Source: Arthrobacter sp. zg-Y238
GTDB lineage: Bacteria > Actinomycetota > Actinomycetes > Actinomycetales > Micrococcaceae
NCBI RefSeq assembly: GCF_024385525.1
Contig: NZ_JANFLU010000006.1
Coordinates: forward strand, 62,001 to 126,000
Direction: 5' to 3'
DNA length: 64,000 nucleotides
The translations under genes and the position numbers were made by a program. Under the pieces are notes generated by a model. That model was not told where the DNA came from. It saw only the letters and a list, made by a program, of their open reading frames with translations, and made no database searches. Positions 6,233 through 59,207 of this stretch are shown here, piece after piece. How positions within the stretch are numbered: the stretch's first letter is position 1; every line of letters starts with the position of its first letter.

Positions 6233-7221
6233 ACCTGCTGCTTTCGTGTTTCCGGTAAGGGCTGCCCGGACGCGGACAGCGGAGCCATCGGGGACCAGGT
6301 CTGGTCCCGGAGGATGCGTCGGGCACCGCGCCAGCCGGCCCAGAGACGCCCGGCACCCCGAAGTGAATGTTCTACGGCAACCAGCCTGAGCAGTTCCTTC
6401 CCGGCGGTCAGGAAAGTTCCCAGACCGAATCCGTACCGGTGATACCGGCCGTGGACCTGCAGGTACCGGGCTGTATGGCCGCGGTTGCGCATGGCGGTGA
6501 AGCGGCCAAGGTCGCTGGAATCGTTCAGGTGCCGGATGCCGAGGTCGATCTGTCTCTGCACCCGGACCTTGCGGATGACGAAGTCGTTGACGTAGGCCAC
6601 CGGCCGGTCCAGGGAGGCAAGCCAGCCGTAAACTACATCGTCGCCGTTGATGAAGTAGCGGGCATCCGGCAGGCCTATCCGGCGCACCTGATCCGCGCTG
6701 ATCAGCATTCCCTCGAAGCAGCCCACATTGGTGTCGAAAACAGGGGAATCGCGGAAAACGTTGCCCGGCACCGGCAGGTGGACGCCCAGGAAGGGGACGA
6801 AGCGGTGCTGCCAGAAGAACGGTGCGCCGCCGGCATCGAACCGCCGGCCGTGGATGCAGTCGTAACTGCCGGTCCACTTGCGCAGCGCAGCCACGGCACC
6901 GGGGAGGACCTCGACGTCGTCGTCCATCAGCCACAGCCACTGCGCGCCGGCGTCCAGGGCAGCTTCGACACCGGCGGCAAACCCGCCGGCCCCGCCGGTG
7001 TTGGCCTCCAGCCGCAGGATTGCCAGCGGGACGGGGAACCCGGCGCGGGCCGCTTCCAGGACCTCGGGCGTCTCATCGGTGCTGGCATTGTCCACCACGA
7101 CAACCGCCGCAGGTGCGGGGTCGAGCCGCTTGACGCTCTCCAGCAGGGCGGTGAGGTAGCTGGAGCGGTTGAACGTCGTGATGACGATTGTCAGCGGGGC
7201 CGGTTCCTGGACGACGTCCAT
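6229..7221 (-). CDS. family 2 glycosyltransferase
   Basis: A 330-residue GT-A fold glycosyltransferase. The N-terminus has the nucleotide-sugar-binding strand TIVITTFNR and VVVVDNASTD, and the metal-binding motif is in LWLMDDDVEV. The NTGGAGGFAAG segment is typical of the rhamnosyl/galactofuranosyl-transferase-like branch (GlfT1-like), so transfer of galactofuranose or a similar sugar onto a lipid-linked glycan is possible but not shown. No membrane helix is evident, so it is probably cytoplasmic or peripheral. It is separated by one base from the upstream paralogue and overlaps the epimerase downstream. Confidence 0.88.
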   Translation of the reverse strand: MDVVQEPAPLTIVITTFNRSSYLTALLESVKRLDPAPAAVVVVDNASTDETPEVLEAARAGFPVPLAILRLEANTGGAGGFAAGVEAALDAGAQWLWLMDDDVEVLPGAVAALRKWTGSYDCIHGRRFDAGGAPFFWQHRFVPFLGVHLPVPGNVFRDSPVFDTNVGCFEGMLISADQVRRIGLPDARYFINGDDVVYGWLASLDRPVAYVNDFVIRKVRVQRQIDLGIRHLNDSSDLGRFTAMRNRGHTARYLQVHGRYHRYGFGLGTFLTAGKELLRLVAVEHSLRGAGRLWAGWRGARRILRDQTWSPMAPLSASGQPLPETRKQQV

Positions 7222-52627: not shown

Positions 52628-53593
52628 CTAGCCCAGACTGGGGGCATGCTGCGGCGGGGCCGGAATATAGATGTTGCCCGTGGTAGCGCCGCCCGTTGCG
52701 GATTCTCCGGTGTCCGGATCGCCGAAGGCGGAGCTGCCCGGCGACGGGACAGGTCCGTCCAGCACCATGGCTTCGGAAGCCAGGGAACGAAGCGCCACTG
52801 CCACTTCGTGTGCCTCGGGGCGTGCGTCCACGAGGCGGGATGTCATGGCCCGAAGGATGCCGGTCCAATCCGGTCCCACCCACTCGGGAATCTCGGGGTC
52901 ACGGAGCAGGCGTGCCACGGCTGCTTCCACAATCGGGCCGGGGAATGCCTTTTCCCCGGTAAGGCATTCCAGGAGCACCAGGCCCAGTGAGTAGACGTCG
53001 GTCCGCGGATCCACGGCAGCCCCCTGTGCCTGTTCCGGGCTCAGGTAGTTCGCGGTTCCGATGGTCGCACCGTTGGCGGTGGCTACGGTGGCCTCGACCA
53101 TCCTGGCGATCCCGAAGTCGGTGAGCCGCGGGTACAGGCGGGTGTCCATGTCTTCCTGCGGGAAAAGCAGGATGTTCGCAGGCTTTACGTCGCGGTGGAT
53201 CACGCCGTTGCTGTGCACGTAGTTCAGCGCGTCGGCCAGATCGGCGCCCAGCGCCGCCGTTGCCGAGGAGGAGAGGGGGCCTTCCTTGAGCGTGCCGCGC
53301 AGGTCCGGTCCGTCCACCAGCTCCATCACGAGGAAGCTGGAGCTGCGGCCCTCGTCATCAACGTTGACGCCGGCGTCCAGCAGGGTGACCAATCCCGGAT
53401 GGTTCAGGGTTGCCAGCAGCTGCATTTCGATCTGCTGGCGGCGGGTTTCGTCATCCTCTCGGAACCCGGCGTTGAAAAGCTTGACGGCTACTTCCCGCCC
53501 AAGGTTCTCGTCGACTGCACGGTAGACGGCAGCAGCACCACCGGACCCTATGAGTTCGGTGGTGCGGTACCGGTGCCCCAGGAGTACATCCAC
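52628..53593 (-). CDS. soluble PknB-like Ser/Thr protein kinase
   Basis: A 321-residue kinase starting at GTG 53593 behind GGGAGGACACCC. The glycine loop is IGSGGAAAVYRA, the ATP-binding Lys is in EVAVKLF, the catalytic loop is HRDVKPANIL, the metal motif DFGIA and the activation segment end GTANYLSPEQ. After the domain there is a Gly/Thr/Pro-rich tail and no membrane helix or PASTA repeats, so it is cytoplasmic, unlike PknB. An upstream in-frame ATG at 53644 lacks a ribosome site. The target is unknown. Confidence 0.9.
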   Translation of the reverse strand: MDVLLGHRYRTTELIGSGGAAAVYRAVDENLGREVAVKLFNAGFREDDETRRQQIEMQLLATLNHPGLVTLLDAGVNVDDEGRSSSFLVMELVDGPDLRGTLKEGPLSSSATAALGADLADALNYVHSNGVIHRDVKPANILLFPQEDMDTRLYPRLTDFGIARMVEATVATANGATIGTANYLSPEQAQGAAVDPRTDVYSLGLVLLECLTGEKAFPGPIVEAAVARLLRDPEIPEWVGPDWTGILRAMTSRLVDARPEAHEVAVALRSLASEAMVLDGPVPSPGSSAFGDPDTGESATGGATTGNIYIPAPPQHAPSLG

Positions 53594-53640
53594 GGGTGTC
53601 CTCCCTTGAGGGTCAAAGATGAAGCAGGGAATCTCGCGGA

Positions 53641-53666
53641 ACATTAATCAGTAGGCTGATCAATGT
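53641..53666 (-). promoter_or_regulatory. inverted repeat upstream of the kinase gene
   Basis: ACATTAATCAG (53641-53651) and CTGATCAATGT (53656-53666) pair at 10 of 11 positions around TAGG. It lies about 48 bp before the kinase start and overlaps likely promoter sequence. A second short hairpin GGCTAG-CCCC-CTAGCC follows at 53669-53684. Confidence 0.45.
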
Positions 53667-53745: not shown

Positions 53746-54558
53746 TTATTCGCCGGCCAGGAACTCCACTGCAGCGTTTTTGAACGCCCGGGAGGTTATG
53801 GCGTTCGTGTGGGTGCGGGCGGGAAGGGATACCAGCTCGGCCTGTCCGCTCAGGGCTGCCAGCTTGGGCGCTGTCGCCGCGAGGTCGTCGCGTTCCCCGG
53901 CAACCAGGAGCAGCGGCATGGAAGGAACCGCCGCTGCGGGGGAGAAGGGTTCCTCCTTGATGGCTTCGATCATCCGGAACAGGGCGGCCAGGTTATTCTG
54001 CGGAACCAGCTGGGCCATGCGCAGCAGTTCGGCGGTGCGGGGATCCGCCACCGGTGCCCCGCCCGCGGCTGCTTCACGGGCGGCATCGAGGTCGAAGTCC
54101 GCCAGCGGGTCTCCGCTTCCCGGCCCTCCGAGCACCATGCGGTGCACGAGTTCGGGCTGGGTCGCACCGAATTCCCAGGCGAGGCGGGAACCGAGGGAGT
54201 AGCCCACCACGTCCAGGCCGCTGGCCGGGTCGCCGTCGGCCAGCGGAGCAACACCCGCGTCCTGAAGTACCTGCAGCAGGTCCGCGCGGATGCGGCTGGG
54301 GCGGTAGGAATCGAGGTCCTCCGGTGCTGCACTGCCGCCGTGGCCGGGCAGGTCCACGGTAATGATCCGGCGTCCCGCAGCGGTCAGTGCCGTGATCCAC
54401 CCAGAGTCGTGCCAGTTCAACTGCGCACTGGAGGCGAAGCCGTGCAACAGGAGGACGGGACGCAGCGCCGTCGTGCCCGCAGCACCGCCGGCAGGGTCGA
54501 TAATCTCCACCGAAAGGCGGGGATCGGTGCCTTCCACCAGGGAGCCGTAGTCGGCCAC
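53746..54558 (-). CDS. alpha/beta hydrolase of the 2-oxoacid dehydrogenase operon (AcoC C-terminal-like)
   Basis: A 270-residue hydrolase starting at GTG 54558, three bases after the lipoyl gene stop. The oxyanion loop is LLLHGFASS, the nucleophile Ser121 is in GYSLGSRLA, the acid is Asp224 or Asp225 in GERDDLA and the base His250 is in ARTHTN. In acetoin dehydrogenase E2 (AcoC), a lipoyl domain is fused to such a hydrolase; here the two parts are adjacent separate genes. It may release or transfer the acyl group carried by the lipoyl protein, but the activity is unknown. Confidence 0.85.
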   Translation of the reverse strand: MADYGSLVEGTDPRLSVEIIDPAGGAAGTTALRPVLLLHGFASSAQLNWHDSGWITALTAAGRRIITVDLPGHGGSAAPEDLDSYRPSRIRADLLQVLQDAGVAPLADGDPASGLDVVGYSLGSRLAWEFGATQPELVHRMVLGGPGSGDPLADFDLDAAREAAAGGAPVADPRTAELLRMAQLVPQNNLAALFRMIEAIKEEPFSPAAAVPSMPLLLVAGERDDLAATAPKLAALSGQAELVSLPARTHTNAITSRAFKNAAVEFLAGE

Positions 54559-54561
54559 TGC

Positions 54562-54891
54562 CTAGTCCTCGTCCAGTGCGGCGGTCAGCCGGACCCGGCG
54601 GCGTGCCGGAGCTTCCTGCGGCACGGTGCCTACGATGCCGGCGGTGTTGTCCGGAACCTCGAAGACGATAAGCGGTTCGCCCACGTTGATCGTTTCCCCG
54701 GGCTCGCCGTAGGTGCGTGCAACGCGGCCGGCCTGCGGGGAGGGCAGCTCCACCGCGGATTTGGTGGTTTCCACCTCGACCAGCGGCTGGTTGCGTTCCA
54801 CCTGATCACCCACGGACACCAGCCATTCCAGCACGGTGGCCTCGATCAGGCCTTCGCCGAGGTCGGGAAGGGGGAAGGGGATTTCAGCCAC
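54562..54891 (-). CDS. stand-alone lipoyl-domain protein (truncated E2-like)
   Basis: A 109-residue protein starting at GTG 54891, overlapping the E1-beta stop by 8 bp and preceded by GGAG. It is a single lipoyl domain: FPLPDLGEGLIEATVLEWLV, then the lipoylation site EVETTKSAVE with Lys44, and GEPLIVFEV. About 30 residues follow the domain. There is no peripheral-subunit-binding domain and no acyltransferase domain with HxxxD, so it cannot act alone as a complete E2. It would carry the acyl group made by the E1 encoded just upstream. Confidence 0.9.
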   Translation of the reverse strand: MAEIPFPLPDLGEGLIEATVLEWLVSVGDQVERNQPLVEVETTKSAVELPSPQAGRVARTYGEPGETINVGEPLIVFEVPDNTAGIVGTVPQEAPARRRVRLTAALDED

Positions 54892-55990
54892 GCCGGTACT
54901 CCAATACTCGCTGGATCCCGAACAGGATGCGGTCGATGTTCGGGATGTATTCGTCTTCAAGATCGCCTGAGGGATACGGTACGTCGAATCCCGTGACCCG
55001 CCCAACCGGAGCGCGCAGGGTATCGAAGCAGCGTTCCGTGATCAGGGCGGCCACTTCGGCGCCGAGACCGGAGGTCAGCGGCGCTTCGTGGACGACGACG
55101 GCGCGCCGGGTCCGGGCGACGGAGGCGGCCAGCCCCTCGGCGTCGATCGGCTTGAGCCACCGCAGGTCCAGGACCTCCACCTCGATGCCGTCCTCGGCAG
55201 CCAGCTCGGCTACGGAGAGGCAGCGGGCCACCATGGCACCCCATGCCACCAGCGTGACGTGCTTGCCCGGACGGACCACCTTGGCACCCTCCACGGGGCC
55301 GGCGTCGTCCAGGAACACGTCGCCCTTCTGCCAGTAGCGGGACTTCGGTTCCATGAAGATCACCGGGTCCGGAACGGCTACGGCATGCTTCAGCAGATGG
55401 TAGGCCTCGTGCGGGCTGGACGGGGAAACCACTTTCAACCCCGGAACGTGGGCGAAGAGCGCCTCCAGCGACTCGCCGTGGTGCTCGGGGGCGCGGATGC
55501 CGCCGAAGCTGGGTACCCGCAGGGTCACCGGCATCGGCATGGTGCCCCGGCTGCGGTAGTTCATCCGGGCCAGCTGGGTGACTATCTGGTTCACCGCCGG
55601 ATACGCGAAACCGTCGAACTGCACCTCCGGGATCGGATGGAAACCGGCCATGGCCAGCCCCACGGACATGCCGAGAATGCCCGACTCCGCCAGCGGGGTA
55701 TCGAAAACGCGGTCGGCGCCGAAGCGCTGCTGCAGGCCGTCGGTGATGCGGAAGACACCGCCGAGCCGTCCCACATCTTCGCCCAGGACAACGGCCCGAG
55801 GATCCTCGGCCAGTGTTTCGGCCAGGGCACGGTTGAGGGCCGCCTGCATCGAGAGGTTTTCCACCCGGCCGTCGCAGTCCTCCGGGGACGGGGCCAGGGG
55901 GGACTGCTCCTGCGCGGCGGTCTGCTCCGTGTTCCGGGCAGCGGCTTCCAGGTCGGAGGACGCCACGGCGTCGCTTAGCTGCTCAGACAT
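54884..55990 (-). CDS. 2-oxoacid dehydrogenase E1 beta subunit
   Basis: A 368-residue transketolase-type beta subunit starting at ATG 55990 behind GGGAGGA and overlapping the E1-alpha stop by 8 bp. Motifs include MQAALNRALAETLAEDPRAV, VLGEDVGRLGGVFRIT, FDTPLAESGILGMSVG and RVPSFGGIRAPEHHGESLEA. About 47 hydrophilic residues precede the fold. It resembles branched-chain 2-oxoacid, pyruvate and acetoin dehydrogenase E1-beta subunits; the substrate cannot be fixed from sequence alone. Confidence 0.93.
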   Translation of the reverse strand: MSEQLSDAVASSDLEAAARNTEQTAAQEQSPLAPSPEDCDGRVENLSMQAALNRALAETLAEDPRAVVLGEDVGRLGGVFRITDGLQQRFGADRVFDTPLAESGILGMSVGLAMAGFHPIPEVQFDGFAYPAVNQIVTQLARMNYRSRGTMPMPVTLRVPSFGGIRAPEHHGESLEALFAHVPGLKVVSPSSPHEAYHLLKHAVAVPDPVIFMEPKSRYWQKGDVFLDDAGPVEGAKVVRPGKHVTLVAWGAMVARCLSVAELAAEDGIEVEVLDLRWLKPIDAEGLAASVARTRRAVVVHEAPLTSGLGAEVAALITERCFDTLRAPVGRVTGFDVPYPSGDLEDEYIPNIDRILFGIQRVLEYRRG

Positions 55991-57002
55991 GTTCGGATTC
56001 CTCCCGCCAGGCGCGGGCCTGGGCTTTGAGTGCTTCGGTGGGCTCGGCGAAAACAAAGTCGAACATTTCCCGTCCGGGCCGCGGGCCGAGCGCCATGACA
56101 CCTTCGCGGACGGCGTCCGCGTTGGTCTTGGCATCCTGCAGCGCGGTGTCCAGGAACGCGTCGTCGGCTATCCCGTCGGCGAGCAACCGGTCTGCCAGCA
56201 GCTGGACCGGATCCGCGCCTTCGTCGCGCCGTTCCTCCGCCAGGCTCCGGTACCGGCCGGGATCGTCGCTGGTGGAGTGCGGGCCGCGGCGGTAGGTCAT
56301 GGCCTCGATCAGTACCGGTCCGTGTCCGGCCCTGGCGTGAGCGGCGGCCTCCCGCGTGGCGAGGACGACGGCGGCGGCGTCGTTGCCGTCCACGGTGATG
56401 GCCTTCATGCCGTACCCGGCGGCACGGGCGGCGACGGTTCCGCCGGCCACCTGGGCCTCGGTGGGCAGGGAAATGGCCCAGCCGTTGTTCTGGACGAAGA
56501 AAATGACCGGCGCCTTCAGGACGCCGGCGAAGTTCATTGCTTCATGGACGTCGCCCTGGGAGCTGGCGCCGTCGCCGAAGTAGGTCAGGGCCACGCCGGG
56601 GTTCCCGGCGAGGGTCTGGCCGTGGGCCCAACCCACGGCGTGCAGTACGGATCCGCCGACCACTGCCTGAATCGGGGCGAGCCGGGTCTGCACCGGGTTG
56701 TAGAGGCCGCCGTGCCAGCTGGCCTTATGGGTGGACATATAGGCGGTCATGTCCACGCCCATGGTCAGAGCCACCCCCATTTCCCGGTAGGTGGGGAAAA
56801 CGAAGTCATGCTCGGGGTCCATGGCGAAGGCGCTGCCCACCTGGGCGGCTTCCTGGCCCAGTTCCGGGGCATACCCGGGGATGATGCCCTGACGCTGCCA
56901 GGCGATTGCGGCGAGGTCCAGCTGCCGGACGGCGGTGACCAGGCGGTACAGCTCCCGGAGTTCCTCCGCCGGCAGGGCCGCAGGTTGCAGATTATTGTCC
57001 AT
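55983..57002 (-). CDS. 2-oxoacid dehydrogenase E1 alpha subunit
   Basis: A 339-residue thiamine-diphosphate subunit. The ThDP motif begins GDGASSQGD (residues 143-151) and ends at NN 172-173; the GPHSTSDDPGRYR phosphorylation-loop-like segment is present. I choose ATG 57002 because TAAATT ends seven bases before it; TTG 57011 would add three residues. It is the first gene of a four-gene operon (E1-alpha, E1-beta, lipoyl protein, hydrolase). No E3 (dihydrolipoamide dehydrogenase) is encoded in the window. Confidence 0.93.
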   Translation of the reverse strand: MDNNLQPAALPAEELRELYRLVTAVRQLDLAAIAWQRQGIIPGYAPELGQEAAQVGSAFAMDPEHDFVFPTYREMGVALTMGVDMTAYMSTHKASWHGGLYNPVQTRLAPIQAVVGGSVLHAVGWAHGQTLAGNPGVALTYFGDGASSQGDVHEAMNFAGVLKAPVIFFVQNNGWAISLPTEAQVAGGTVAARAAGYGMKAITVDGNDAAAVVLATREAAAHARAGHGPVLIEAMTYRRGPHSTSDDPGRYRSLAEERRDEGADPVQLLADRLLADGIADDAFLDTALQDAKTNADAVREGVMALGPRPGREMFDFVFAEPTEALKAQARAWREESEHV

Positions 57003-57108: not shown

Positions 57109-58545
57109 CTATCCGGCCTGGTTGCCTCGGTCCGCGGGTGCGGTGCGGACCTTGGCGGCGCTGCGCCGCTCGAAGGACCAGGCCAGCAGTACCAGCACGG
57201 TGCTGAGGGCCGCCGTCGCCAGCAGTTGGATACGCACATCGGGGTCGAAGAAGCCCAGGACCACGATTCCTGCGAGCAGTGCCAGCGCAAAGTAGGAGAG
57301 CCAGGGGAAGGCCCACATCTTGAACGTGAGTTCGACGCCGGCCGCTTCCGCCCGCCGCCGCAGGATGATCTGCGAAACAATGGAGATGCCCCAGACCACC
57401 AGGCAGGTGGAGCCGACGGTGTTGAGCAGGATCATCAGCACCGTGTCGGGGTAGAGGTAGTTCAGCACCACGGCGATGAAGCCGAAGACCACGGACGCCA
57501 GCACGGCCCGGCGGGGCACTCCGCCGGAGCCGAGGCGGCCCAGGGCAGCCGGAGCCCGGCCGCGCTCGCCCAGGGAGTAGATCATCCGGGACGCGCCGTA
57601 CAGGTTCGCGTTCATGGCGGACAGCAGTGCAATGACGATGACGACGGCCATGACCGTGTCCGCGCCGGGTACCTTCGCTGCGTGCAGGACGGCTACGAAC
57701 GGCCCGGTGCTCAGCGCTTCACTGTCCCAGGGCAGCACGGTGACCATCACCAGCACCGAACCGATGTAGAAGACCAGGATCCGCCAGATCACCGAGTTAA
57801 TGGCTCCGGCAATGTTCTTGGACGGCTCTTCGGTGTCCGCCGCCGCGATGGTGATGATCTCGGTGCCGCCGAAAGCGAAGACCACCAGCAGCAGTCCTGA
57901 GGCCACCCCGGTCAGCCCGTTGGGCATAAAGCCGCCGTTGTCGAAGAGGTTGGAGGTGCCCGGCGACGGGACGCCCGGAAGCAGTCCGGCCACAAAGGCG
58001 ACGCCGACCGCCAGGAAGATGATGATGGCCGCCACCTTCAGGATGGCAAACCAGTACTCGAATTCACCCAGACTGGCAGCCCCGGCCAGGTTGACGGCGG
58101 TAAACACGATGATGAACGCCAGCGCCAGCATCCACTGCTCGACGCCTGGGATCAGGGAAGCGACGATGGCCGCGGCGGCCGTGGCCTCCGCGGCTATGAC
58201 GATCACAATCTGGAACCACCACATCCACCCGACCGTGGTGCCCGCCGTGCGCCCCAGGGCTTTCTCGGCATACACGGAAAACGCACCGCTGCTGGGATCT
58301 GCCGCCGCCATCTCGCCCATCATGCGCATGATGAGAATCACCATGGTTCCGGCAATCAGGAAGGAGATCAGCACTGCGGGACCGGCGGCTGCGATACCTT
58401 CGCCGGACCCTACAAAGAGGCCGGTGCCGATGGCACTGCCGAGGCTCATCAGGACAAGGTGCCTCGGCTGCATCTTCTTCGCTCCGGACGGTTCCCCGGC
58501 CGGAAGTGCAGTATCAGTGCTGGACGGGCGGGCGGAACTGGGCAT
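57109..58545 (-). CDS. APC superfamily amino acid permease
   Basis: A 478-residue transporter with twelve predicted membrane helices. Helix 1 carries MSLGSAIGTGLFVGSGEGI, the substrate-binding break of the amino acid/polyamine/organocation family; GPAVLISFLIAG and the loop 6 region FGGTEIITIAAADTEEP are also typical. I start it at ATG 58545 (MPSSARPSS). Relatives move amino acids such as Asn, Pro, GABA or aromatic residues. It lies between the E1 operon and an Lrp-type regulator, so an amino acid whose breakdown feeds the dehydrogenase is plausible. Confidence 0.88.
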   Translation of the reverse strand: MPSSARPSSTDTALPAGEPSGAKKMQPRHLVLMSLGSAIGTGLFVGSGEGIAAAGPAVLISFLIAGTMVILIMRMMGEMAAADPSSGAFSVYAEKALGRTAGTTVGWMWWFQIVIVIAAEATAAAAIVASLIPGVEQWMLALAFIIVFTAVNLAGAASLGEFEYWFAILKVAAIIIFLAVGVAFVAGLLPGVPSPGTSNLFDNGGFMPNGLTGVASGLLLVVFAFGGTEIITIAAADTEEPSKNIAGAINSVIWRILVFYIGSVLVMVTVLPWDSEALSTGPFVAVLHAAKVPGADTVMAVVIVIALLSAMNANLYGASRMIYSLGERGRAPAALGRLGSGGVPRRAVLASVVFGFIAVVLNYLYPDTVLMILLNTVGSTCLVVWGISIVSQIILRRRAEAAGVELTFKMWAFPWLSYFALALLAGIVVLGFFDPDVRIQLLATAALSTVLVLLAWSFERRSAAKVRTAPADRGNQAG

Positions 58546-58730
58546 AACAGGGGAGGCCTTAGAACGAACGGATGGGCTGCCGGTGCGGGCACCGGCCGGC
58601 AGGGATGCTGCCGCGGGTCTGTACACCGGATTCCATCTTAAGGCCGGTTTGTGTGTCCTCTGTTCCGGCAGTCGGCCGTGCTGCCTTTACAATTTGTACA
58701 CTGCCTGTGCTTAGTCCCGGAAAGGACCCC
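58546..58730. promoter_or_regulatory. divergent promoter region of permease and Lrp gene
   Basis: The 185-bp gap holds TTTACAATTTGTACACTG at 58686-58703, which includes ACAATTTGTACA (58689-58700) and a TACACT -10-like hexamer at 58697-58702. The AT-rich imperfect palindrome looks like an Lrp-type operator controlling the permease, the regulator itself, or both. Confidence 0.5.
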
Positions 58731-59207
58731 ATGCCCACCGACGCGCTGGACGCCCGTATCGTCACCCTGTTTACCGACAACCCGCGTATGTCGGTGCTCG
58801 AGGCCTCGCGCCGGCTCGCCGTTGCCCGGGCCACCGTGCAGGCACGCTTGGACCGGATGCAGGAGACCGGAGTAATTGCCGGGTGGGGTCCGCGGATCGA
58901 CGCCGAGGCCCTGGGCTACGACGTCATCGCCTACTGCTCGCTCACCATCCGCCAGGACACAGGCCACGACGCAGTGGTTGCGGCACTGTCCCGGATTCCG
59001 GAAATCCAGGAGGTGCATACCGTCTCGGGGGAGAGCGACCTGCTGGCGCGCGTGGCGGCGCGGTCCAATTCTGACCTGCAGCGGGTGATTGACGCGATAG
59101 TCGCCACCAACACCGTCCTGCGGACCTCCTCGGTGATTGTGCTGAACACGCACTTCCAGGGGCGGATGCTGCCCCTGCTGAATGCCGCAGCAACACCGGA
59201 AGCCTGA
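58731..59207 (+). CDS. Lrp/AsnC family transcriptional regulator
   Basis: A 158-residue regulator starting at ATG 58731 behind GGAAAGGA. The N-terminal helix-turn-helix contains ALDARIVTLFTDNPRMSVLEASRRLAVARATVQARLDRM, and the C-terminal RAM domain has VHTVSGESDLLARV, the usual ligand-binding Gly region. Members respond to amino acids and often control adjacent transport or catabolic genes, including branched-chain 2-oxoacid dehydrogenase operons (BkdR). The neighbouring permease and E1 operon are the obvious targets. Confidence 0.92.
   Translation: MPTDALDARIVTLFTDNPRMSVLEASRRLAVARATVQARLDRMQETGVIAGWGPRIDAEALGYDVIAYCSLTIRQDTGHDAVVAALSRIPEIQEVHTVSGESDLLARVAARSNSDLQRVIDAIVATNTVLRTSSVIVLNTHFQGRMLPLLNAAATPEA

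Follow-up and report, generated by a model that had tools for sequence, protein, structure and literature searches.

Several described systems come close to the locus discussed here. The acetoin dehydrogenase protein AcoC combines a lipoyl and an alpha/beta-hydrolase part in one chain, and the OdhA/KGD proteins of actinobacteria are reportedly two-in-one E1-E2 enzymes with acyltransferase and E1 in a single chain. LbpA of sulfur oxidisers is described as a stand-alone lipoyl protein (PMC6067878) and ABHD11 as a mitochondrial (mammalian) glutaryl-lipoyl thioesterase (PMC12643935; PMC7426941). In Arthrobacter and a number of soil bacteria related to it, one form of E1 comes with a separate, core-less carrier protein, and our search of open-access papers returned no description of this module, which may still be in print.

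The module was found in the window, that is, the whole 64,000-nucleotide stretch of DNA analysed here. Open reading frames and Pfam matches bear out the first-pass annotation in its list of four genes: E1-alpha (E1a), E1-beta (E1b), a lipoyl-only protein (LIP) and a hydrolase (HYD), as given in Table 1. Overlaps of 8 bases join E1a to E1b and E1b to LIP, and the reported gap of 3 bases between the LIP stop and the HYD start is indeed there. It had been argued from this gap that no E2 catalytic domain was lost between the two genes; such an argument fails, because a 3-base gap cannot prove the absence of any past E2-domain loss. Across 74 locus records, in which some genomes are counted twice, the distance between LIP and HYD lies anywhere between -35 and +301 bases. 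No 2-oxoacid_dh domain (PF00198) was found at the locus, the six matches of the genome (in five genes) all lying outside the window, and the same genome has three other E1-alpha/E1-beta/E2 loci. The best NCBIfam match of E1-alpha is the PDH-type model TIGR03181 (380 bits, below the cut-off of 411), and its nearest PDB entry is the PDH E1-alpha of G. stearothermophilus; for E1-beta, the nearest entries are the E1-beta chains of T. thermophilus and G. stearothermophilus. The permease upstream is often syntenic with the module, yet it is not essential to it: none was detected between the Lrp and E1a genes in genomes G010 and G017, both of which keep the module.

Table 1. Features of the module and its surroundings (positions in the window)
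Feature	Position	Strand	Description
E1-alpha	57002-55983	minus	339 aa; ThDP-dependent 2-oxoacid decarboxylase subunit; Pfam E1_dh 254 bits
E1-beta	55990-54884	minus	368 aa; Pfam Transket_pyr + Transketolase_C
LIP (lipoyl-only protein)	54891-54562	minus	109 aa, GTG start; Pfam Biotin_lipoyl 66 bits, residues 6-76
HYD (alpha/beta-hydrolase)	54558-53746	minus	270 aa, GTG start; Pfam Abhydrolase_1
E1-beta Arg326 codon	55013..55015	minus	position non-acidic throughout the clade
LIP Lys44 codon	54760..54762	minus	lipoylation lysine in ETTKS
Amino acid permease	57109..58626	minus	upstream of module; Pfam AA_permease; NCBIfam GABA permease model 473 of 678 bits
Lrp/AsnC-family regulator	58734..59207	plus	divergent; Pfam AsnC_trans_reg

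When searched for across genomes, the four-gene order recurs. Orthologues of E1a and LIP are present in 26 of the 59 near genomes (own genome included) and in 15 more genomes of a 296-genome class sample, and they accompany HYD at 27 of 80 named HYD-seeded loci. Given this recurrence in all three sets, the four-gene arrangement is not due to chance. The module occurs in Micrococcaceae, Microbacteriaceae and Nocardiopsidaceae, and HYD adjoins LIP in every one of the 41 genomes where LIP was found (26 near genomes and 15 from the class sample), which disposes of the concern that hydrolase homologues might never occur with lipoyl genes. The adjacency holds over all three families, with HYD identity falling to 36-45%. 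Paenarthrobacter aurescens TC1 is among the strains with the complete set of four genes. Genomes that have LIP, E1a and E1b show strong purifying selection on all three (dN/dS 0.017-0.125, 8 pairs). Among plasmids, E1a matches 626 records, all below 60% identity and the best at 48%, while HYD reaches at most 33% identity among the matches listed.

The sampled E2-less E1s compose one clade (50 rows, including one identical pair; SH-aLRT 99), apart from nine comparison E1s. At E1-beta column 326, an aspartate or glutamate is found in 27 of 28 E2-linked E1-betas, many of them closely related to one another, versus none of the 50 clade rows, which have Arg (17), Lys (17), Ala (14), Leu (1) and Ser (1). 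Halorussus L236, with no E2 gene beside its E1, was removed from the initial 29 comparison rows; if it is included, 28 of 29 are acidic. Columns 162, 172, 244 and 278 also separate the clade cleanly from the E2-linked sequences. Column 326 aligns with a glutamate of Geobacillus PDH (index 285 of the G. stearothermophilus chain), which we take to be a PSBD contact. Not every E1-beta outside the clade is acidic here: the column holds Leu in T. thermophilus and Ala in one of the E2-linked E1-betas of the own genome (L077). The absence of the acidic residue at this presumed contact throughout the clade makes it probable that its E1 has departed from the E2 core.

LIP consists of a lipoyl domain (approximately residues 1-80) and a conserved, linker-like tail (81-109). 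Its structure model is confident up to about residue 80 and then drops to pLDDT 50-55, with the tail modelled without structure. Both the conservation of the tail and the invariance of Lys44 are seen in two alignments, A1 (15 of 15 sequences for Lys44) and A6 (26 of 26). Neither a PSBD nor an acyltransferase is present in LIP, as judged from Pfam, which gives no domain beyond Biotin_lipoyl, and from the unstructured residues 81-109 of the model; LIP also falls short of the GCV_H family (16.1 bits, cut-off 22.2). By eye, the tail sequence (GIVGTVP...RRVRL) looks like the linkers that follow the lipoyl domain in the E2s of the same genome (LVGYGAVP...RRRR). Such a resemblance most likely indicates that LIP descends from a truncated E2. 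A phylum sample of 396 genomes, searched with the L106 LIP at E <= 1e-24, yielded 24 matches besides the own genome, every one in an open frame of at least 327 aa; thus, judging by frame length, no stand-alone LIP is apparent in this sample outside the class.

HYD is generic in both sequence and fold. Its model has a pLDDT of 94, Foldseek returns generic alpha/beta-hydrolases such as esterases and perhydrolases, and the NCBIfam matches are scattered over MenH, PcaD, AcoC, haloalkane dehalogenase and others, all far under cut-off. Ser121, Asp224 and His250 are kept in 125 of 125 rows and, to judge from fold and motif, are likely the catalytic triad. Micrococcaceae that repeatedly lost E1 and LIP retain HYD with this triad intact, and dN/dS of HYD is 0.044-0.172 in HYD-only lineages (14 pairs) versus 0.039-0.172 in lineages with the module (8 pairs). 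As HYD stays intact and the purifying selection on it is no different once E1 and LIP are lost, it has work independent of them. HYD-only calls at named loci refer to flanks of up to 7 kb, some of them truncated where a contig stops; in the near-genome set, the check for a LIP orthologue covered whole genomes. Of four loci with remnants upstream of HYD, three give weak matches (E 0.002, 0.03 and 0.14) and L064 a clearer one (E 1e-5); L066 and L067 show none. The HYD tree was built quickly and has several long branches; the frame-shifted copy of G013 (decay or a sequencing error) was excluded from it. In Agromyces and Cryobacterium flavum, more distant relatives of HYD adjoin nicotinamidase and PBP4 genes, not lipoyl genes. 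Since HYD is often retained without LIP, the adjacency of the two may reflect inherited gene order.

The first-pass annotation had proposed that a lipoyl carrier plus a free hydrolase replaces the classical E2, either as a split acetoin-type enzyme or as a system whose hydrolase releases the acyl group. A conserved lineage of E1, lipoyl-only protein and hydrolase with no E2 core at the locus is supported; HYD as a simple stand-in for E2 is not, being kept in Micrococcaceae after E1 and LIP were lost, and the strict form, in which HYD is an obligate E2 substitute, was dropped. Keeping in mind that HYD outlasts E1 and LIP and is not specifically AcoC-like, we consider both the replacement of E2 by the hydrolase and the split acetoin enzyme too strong. 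Release of the lipoate-bound acyl group by the hydrolase may still apply, with mammalian ABHD11 as a precedent (PMC12643935).

The interpretation that we prefer, held tentatively and at somewhat less than even confidence, is an E2-core-free, carrier-type 2-oxoacid oxidative decarboxylase in which HYD acts on acyl-lipoyl groups and is not LIP-specific. We think it fairly probable that E1 and LIP function apart from the E2 core; that HYD acts on acyl-lipoyl groups is possible, though we would not give it even chances. In this scheme, the E1 heterotetramer would decarboxylate a 2-oxoacid on ThDP and reductively acylate the lipoyl group on Lys44 of LIP. Because LIP has neither PSBD nor acyltransferase and E1-beta has no acidic residue at the expected PSBD-docking surface, LIP may shuttle freely, like H-protein, rather than swing on an E2 core. 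HYD, as a serine hydrolase, would attack the acyl-lipoyl thioester and pass the acyl group on, with water or some other molecule as acceptor, be it as the principal route of release or for rescue, and a general lipoamide dehydrogenase would reoxidise LIP. Where LIP is missing, HYD could perhaps act on lipoyl groups of other complexes, as ABHD11 does in mitochondria. It is tempting to go further and suppose that the hydrolase is the normal exit of the cycle: with E1 off the E2 core and the carrier cut from an old E2, 2-oxoacids would be turned into free acids, or the acyl group passed to a non-CoA acceptor, and NADH formed via E3. We regard this extended version as unlikely.

Two alternatives leave the transfer to CoA with an E2 in trans. 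According to one, E1 acylates LIP and a complete E2 encoded elsewhere moves the acyl group to CoA, HYD being a housekeeping neighbour with its own substrate. A core of this kind could be available to LIP in trans, with 4-7 PF00198 matches in all 24 module or ex-module genomes checked; the own genome, with its five other genes containing the acyltransferase domain and its three further E1-alpha/E1-beta/E2 loci, fits as well, and so does the persistence of HYD without LIP. However, LIP without HYD occurs in 0 of 41 genomes, Diaminobutyricibacter (L187) keeps HYD beside LIP although the Lrp gene moved, and the acidic residue is gone from the presumed docking surface of E1-beta, all of which makes this alternative rather doubtful to us. 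The other restricts HYD to lipoyl maintenance: an E2 acting in trans again makes the acyl-CoA, and the part of HYD, in the manner of ABHD11, is to rid LIP and further lipoyl proteins of acyl groups that are wrong or have stalled. ABHD11 takes glutaryl off lipoate and keeps OGDHc active (PMC12643935; PMC7426941), and maintenance would account both for HYD beside every LIP and for HYD outliving LIP. It is nonetheless quite improbable in our estimate, with HYD limited to some families while lipoyl proteins are general, and with the likeness of HYD to ABHD11 being one of suggested function only.

A split acetoin dehydrogenase, with LIP and HYD as the two halves of AcoC and E1 acting on acetoin, would explain why the AcoC model matches the lipoyl part in LIP and the hydrolase part in HYD, with all 15 of 15 HYD members matched (best E 5e-20). 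Nevertheless, the scores are only 55 bits for LIP and 46 for HYD where the cut-off is 307, the hydrolase part of AcoC gives 157-170 bits with other actinobacterial hydrolases, and the best E-value of HYD members is even better for PcaDC. Across the 296 class genomes, no AcoC was found above cut-off; the proximity of E1-alpha to TIGR03181, although below that model's cut-off, and the survival of HYD without LIP speak against this explanation too. We therefore rejected a split AcoC on model scores and consider it very improbable. Least credible of all, and close to negligible, is a decaying remnant, that is, a broken BCKDH operon heading for loss. E1 and LIP are indeed lost or broken in several Micrococcaceae, but the dN/dS values of LIP, E1a and E1b given above and the conservation of the lipoyl-only form over three families led us to reject it.

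If E1 and LIP do work without an E2 core, they would represent an actinobacterial exception to the rule of a multi-subunit acyltransferase core in 2-oxoacid dehydrogenases, and the replacement step would be testable in a four-gene system. If HYD strips lipoate of its acyl groups, bacteria would have a counterpart to the recently described ABHD11 activity, with genetics far easier than in mitochondria. Natural strains in which HYD is always present and E1-LIP present or absent make the two roles separable. Overall, this might be a well-known enzyme complex assembled in a new way, although the hydrolase, often kept after the rest of the module was lost, is not simply a replacement part.

With BCKDH/PDH-type complexes, the module shares the E1-alpha/E1-beta folds, a lipoyl domain with a conserved lysine and the E2-linker-like tail of LIP; it differs in lacking both a PSBD and an acyltransferase at the locus, in the changed docking-surface residue and in the hydrolase gene beside LIP. 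As in OdhA/KGD, E2 functions are unusually split between proteins, although here the acyltransferase is missing from the module. The glycine cleavage system likewise relies on a small stand-alone lipoyl carrier, its H-protein, whereas LIP is E2-like rather than H-like and has a 2-oxoacid E1 as its partner. The latter also distinguishes LIP from LbpA, another small stand-alone carrier (PMC6067878). HYD, a putative functional analogue of ABHD11, is like it a serine alpha/beta-hydrolase linked to lipoyl proteins; what sets HYD apart is its genetic tie to a free lipoyl carrier. Finally, lipoyl and hydrolase parts adjoin E1 genes here as in AcoC-type acetoin dehydrogenase, but LIP and HYD are separate proteins, far under the AcoC cut-off, and HYD persists where LIP is gone.

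The four-gene arrangement described in the first-pass annotation was confirmed: genes for E1-alpha, E1-beta, the lipoyl-only protein LIP and the alpha/beta-hydrolase HYD are packed closely on the minus strand. The source assembly (3.55 Mb, 20 contigs, completeness rating 100%) contains six matches to the E2 acyltransferase domain in five genes, all away from this module, and three further E1-alpha/E1-beta/lipoyl-E2 loci on contigs C16, C1 and C4, with E1-alpha 40-44% identical to that of the module. Thus, the module locus is the fourth 2-oxoacid dehydrogenase-type paralogue of the genome and lacks an E2. Upstream (5') of it lie an amino acid permease gene and a divergent Lrp/AsnC regulator gene; the labels SbcC, MFS, M20, MarR and LLM used for neighbours were assigned by eye. 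The Ser/Thr kinase gene after HYD is syntenic with HYD in many Micrococcaceae, including those without E1 and LIP. Several Arthrobacter relatives also carry a small conserved ORF with a basic end (GKSIKDKRAEKRAK...KKRKGQ) between the permease gene and E1-alpha or HYD; its L069 copy gave no Pfam match at E <= 0.1.

Coordinates of the module genes (window) and of neighbouring features (window, or loci of relatives, L-codes)
Feature	Position	Strand	Remark
E1-alpha	57002-55983	minus	Pfam E1_dh
E1-beta	55990-54884	minus	Pfam Transket_pyr with Transketolase_C
LIP	54891-54562	minus	Pfam Biotin_lipoyl alone
HYD	54558-53746	minus	Pfam Abhydrolase_1
Ser/Thr protein kinase gene	52628-53644	minus	downstream of HYD
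Small conserved ORF	L069:9966-10223; L068 near 6331-6600		also permease-HYD gaps of L062, L063, L064, L065, L067

In a tree of joined E1-alpha and E1-beta sequences, the 50 E2-less rows formed a single clade (SH-aLRT 99) against nine comparison rows. Column 326 of E1-beta is acidic in 27/28 E2-linked proteins (D in 10, E in 17); in the 50 clade rows it is R (17), K (17), A (14), L (1) or S (1). It aligns with index 285 of Geobacillus stearothermophilus E1-beta, Glu285, which we take to be a contact of the E2 domain PSBD; the aligned residue in T. thermophilus is Leu. A passage of PMC2663715 places the PSBD at the E1 two-fold axis. The clade also carries F at column 162 (G in 28/29 comparison rows), H at 244 (D or E in 29/29), W at 278 (S or T in 29/29) and, in 49/50 rows, G at 172 (S in 28/29). 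We read the clade's E1 as one with an altered (presumed) docking surface, apparently freed from E2-core binding. Halorussus, the 29th comparison row, carries E at column 326 but has no adjoining E2 gene, and was left out of the 27/28 count; on its plasmid (L236:3935-5990), E1-alpha and E1-beta genes are followed by a gene annotated as alcohol dehydrogenase, and no E2 gene adjoins them within the stretch examined.

In the structure model of LIP, confidence is high across the lipoyl domain and drops to pLDDT 50-55 beyond residue 80. Despite this, the tail is conserved, with G85, I86, G88, P91, R98, R99, R101 and L102 invariant in both alignments (15 and 26 sequences). By eye, it is similar to the linkers that follow the lipoyl domain in the genome's own E2s, so LIP looks like an E2 truncated before the PSBD. 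The joint loss of PSBD, acyltransferase and the acidic E1-beta residue is the sharpest new evidence.

LIP and E1-alpha orthologues co-occur in the same 26 of 59 near genomes (own included), and HYD adjoins LIP in all 26. LIP matches at E <= 1e-24 were found in 22 of 296 genomes of the class, 16 of them lipoyl-only: our own, one of the order and 14 of family f35, presumed to be the Nocardiopsis group because the HYD of one member (G233) is identical to that of Actinorugispora endophytica. All 15 fetched class genomes with lipoyl-only LIP keep the order E1-alpha, E1-beta, LIP, HYD, with HYD adjoining LIP. This adjacency persists even where HYD is only 36-45% identical to the window HYD, and in Diaminobutyricibacter (L187), which has its Lrp gene on the opposite side. 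Of 80 named loci that were seeded with HYD (the best of 571), 27 hold all four genes, in Arthrobacter, Paenarthrobacter (including P. aurescens TC1), Pseudarthrobacter oxydans, Sinomonas, Kocuria polaris, Cryobacterium, Diaminobutyricibacter, Actinorugispora, Nocardiopsis, Allosalinactinospora and one uncultured Micrococcaceae. No lipoyl-only-looking match outside the class appeared in a phylum sample of 396 genomes.

The earlier model, in which a lipoyl carrier and a free hydrolase replace the classical E2, is partly upheld: the E2-less E1, the lipoyl-only carrier and HYD beside LIP favour it, but HYD survives the loss of LIP, which is the sharpest evidence against it. Six of the 59 genomes (G001, G003, G013, G019, G021, G036) have a HYD orthologue and none of LIP or E1-alpha; in five, the flanking gene order is intact and the E1-LIP block is gone, and G036 retains permease-HYD. 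A remnant of the E1-beta end lies directly upstream of HYD in L064 (E 1e-5), with weaker ones 5' of HYD in L062, L063 and L065. In named strains L148, L156 and L172, LIP is broken or shortened beside an intact HYD, and E1-alpha and E1-beta were not found at these loci. Within the same best 80 of 571 loci, 50 belong to the HYD-only type: 33 of these have >=55% identity and 17 have <48%. Of the 125 HYD rows placed in a tree, 64 carry the module and 61 lack it (G013 left out); along this tree, the module label switches at least 16 times, or at least seven counting only well-supported branches. Ser121, Asp224 and His250 are retained in 64/64 and 61/61 rows, respectively, and HYD dN/dS spans 0.044-0.172 in 14 HYD-only pairs versus 0.039-0.172 in eight module pairs. 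In G013, a genome without E1 and LIP, HYD (L067:8160-8963) is frame-shifted in its second half, through either decay or sequencing error.

The HYD model (pLDDT 94) matched generic esterases, perhydrolases and MenH in Foldseek. Its NCBIfam matches are many and weak (MenH 54 bits and AcoC 46 bits for the window HYD), and 15/15 HYD members match the PcaDC, AcoC, PcaD and MenH models. No protein in the 296 class genomes passed the AcoC cut-off; other hydrolases there reach 157-170 bits on the hydrolase part of that model. In Agromyces and Cryobacterium flavum, the genes ahead of distant HYD relatives encode a nicotinamidase, a PBP4-type carboxypeptidase and a Gfo/Idh/MocA oxidoreductase; at L181:3606-7708 and L188:3858-7693, the relative overlaps the nicotinamidase-like gene by 4 bases.

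One reading is that HYD may act on acyl-lipoyl groups generally, which would accommodate both the need of LIP for a nearby HYD and the independence of HYD from LIP. HYD would then serve either as the regular exit from the cycle or purely in rescue. A precedent for such putative action is ABHD11, which, according to PMC12643935 and PMC7426941, strips lipoate of glutaryl and keeps OGDHc functional. The glycine cleavage system has a carrier plan similar to that of the module, yet Pfam does not assign LIP to the H-protein family. LbpA, as portrayed in PMC6067878, also has a carrier plan resembling that of the module's LIP.
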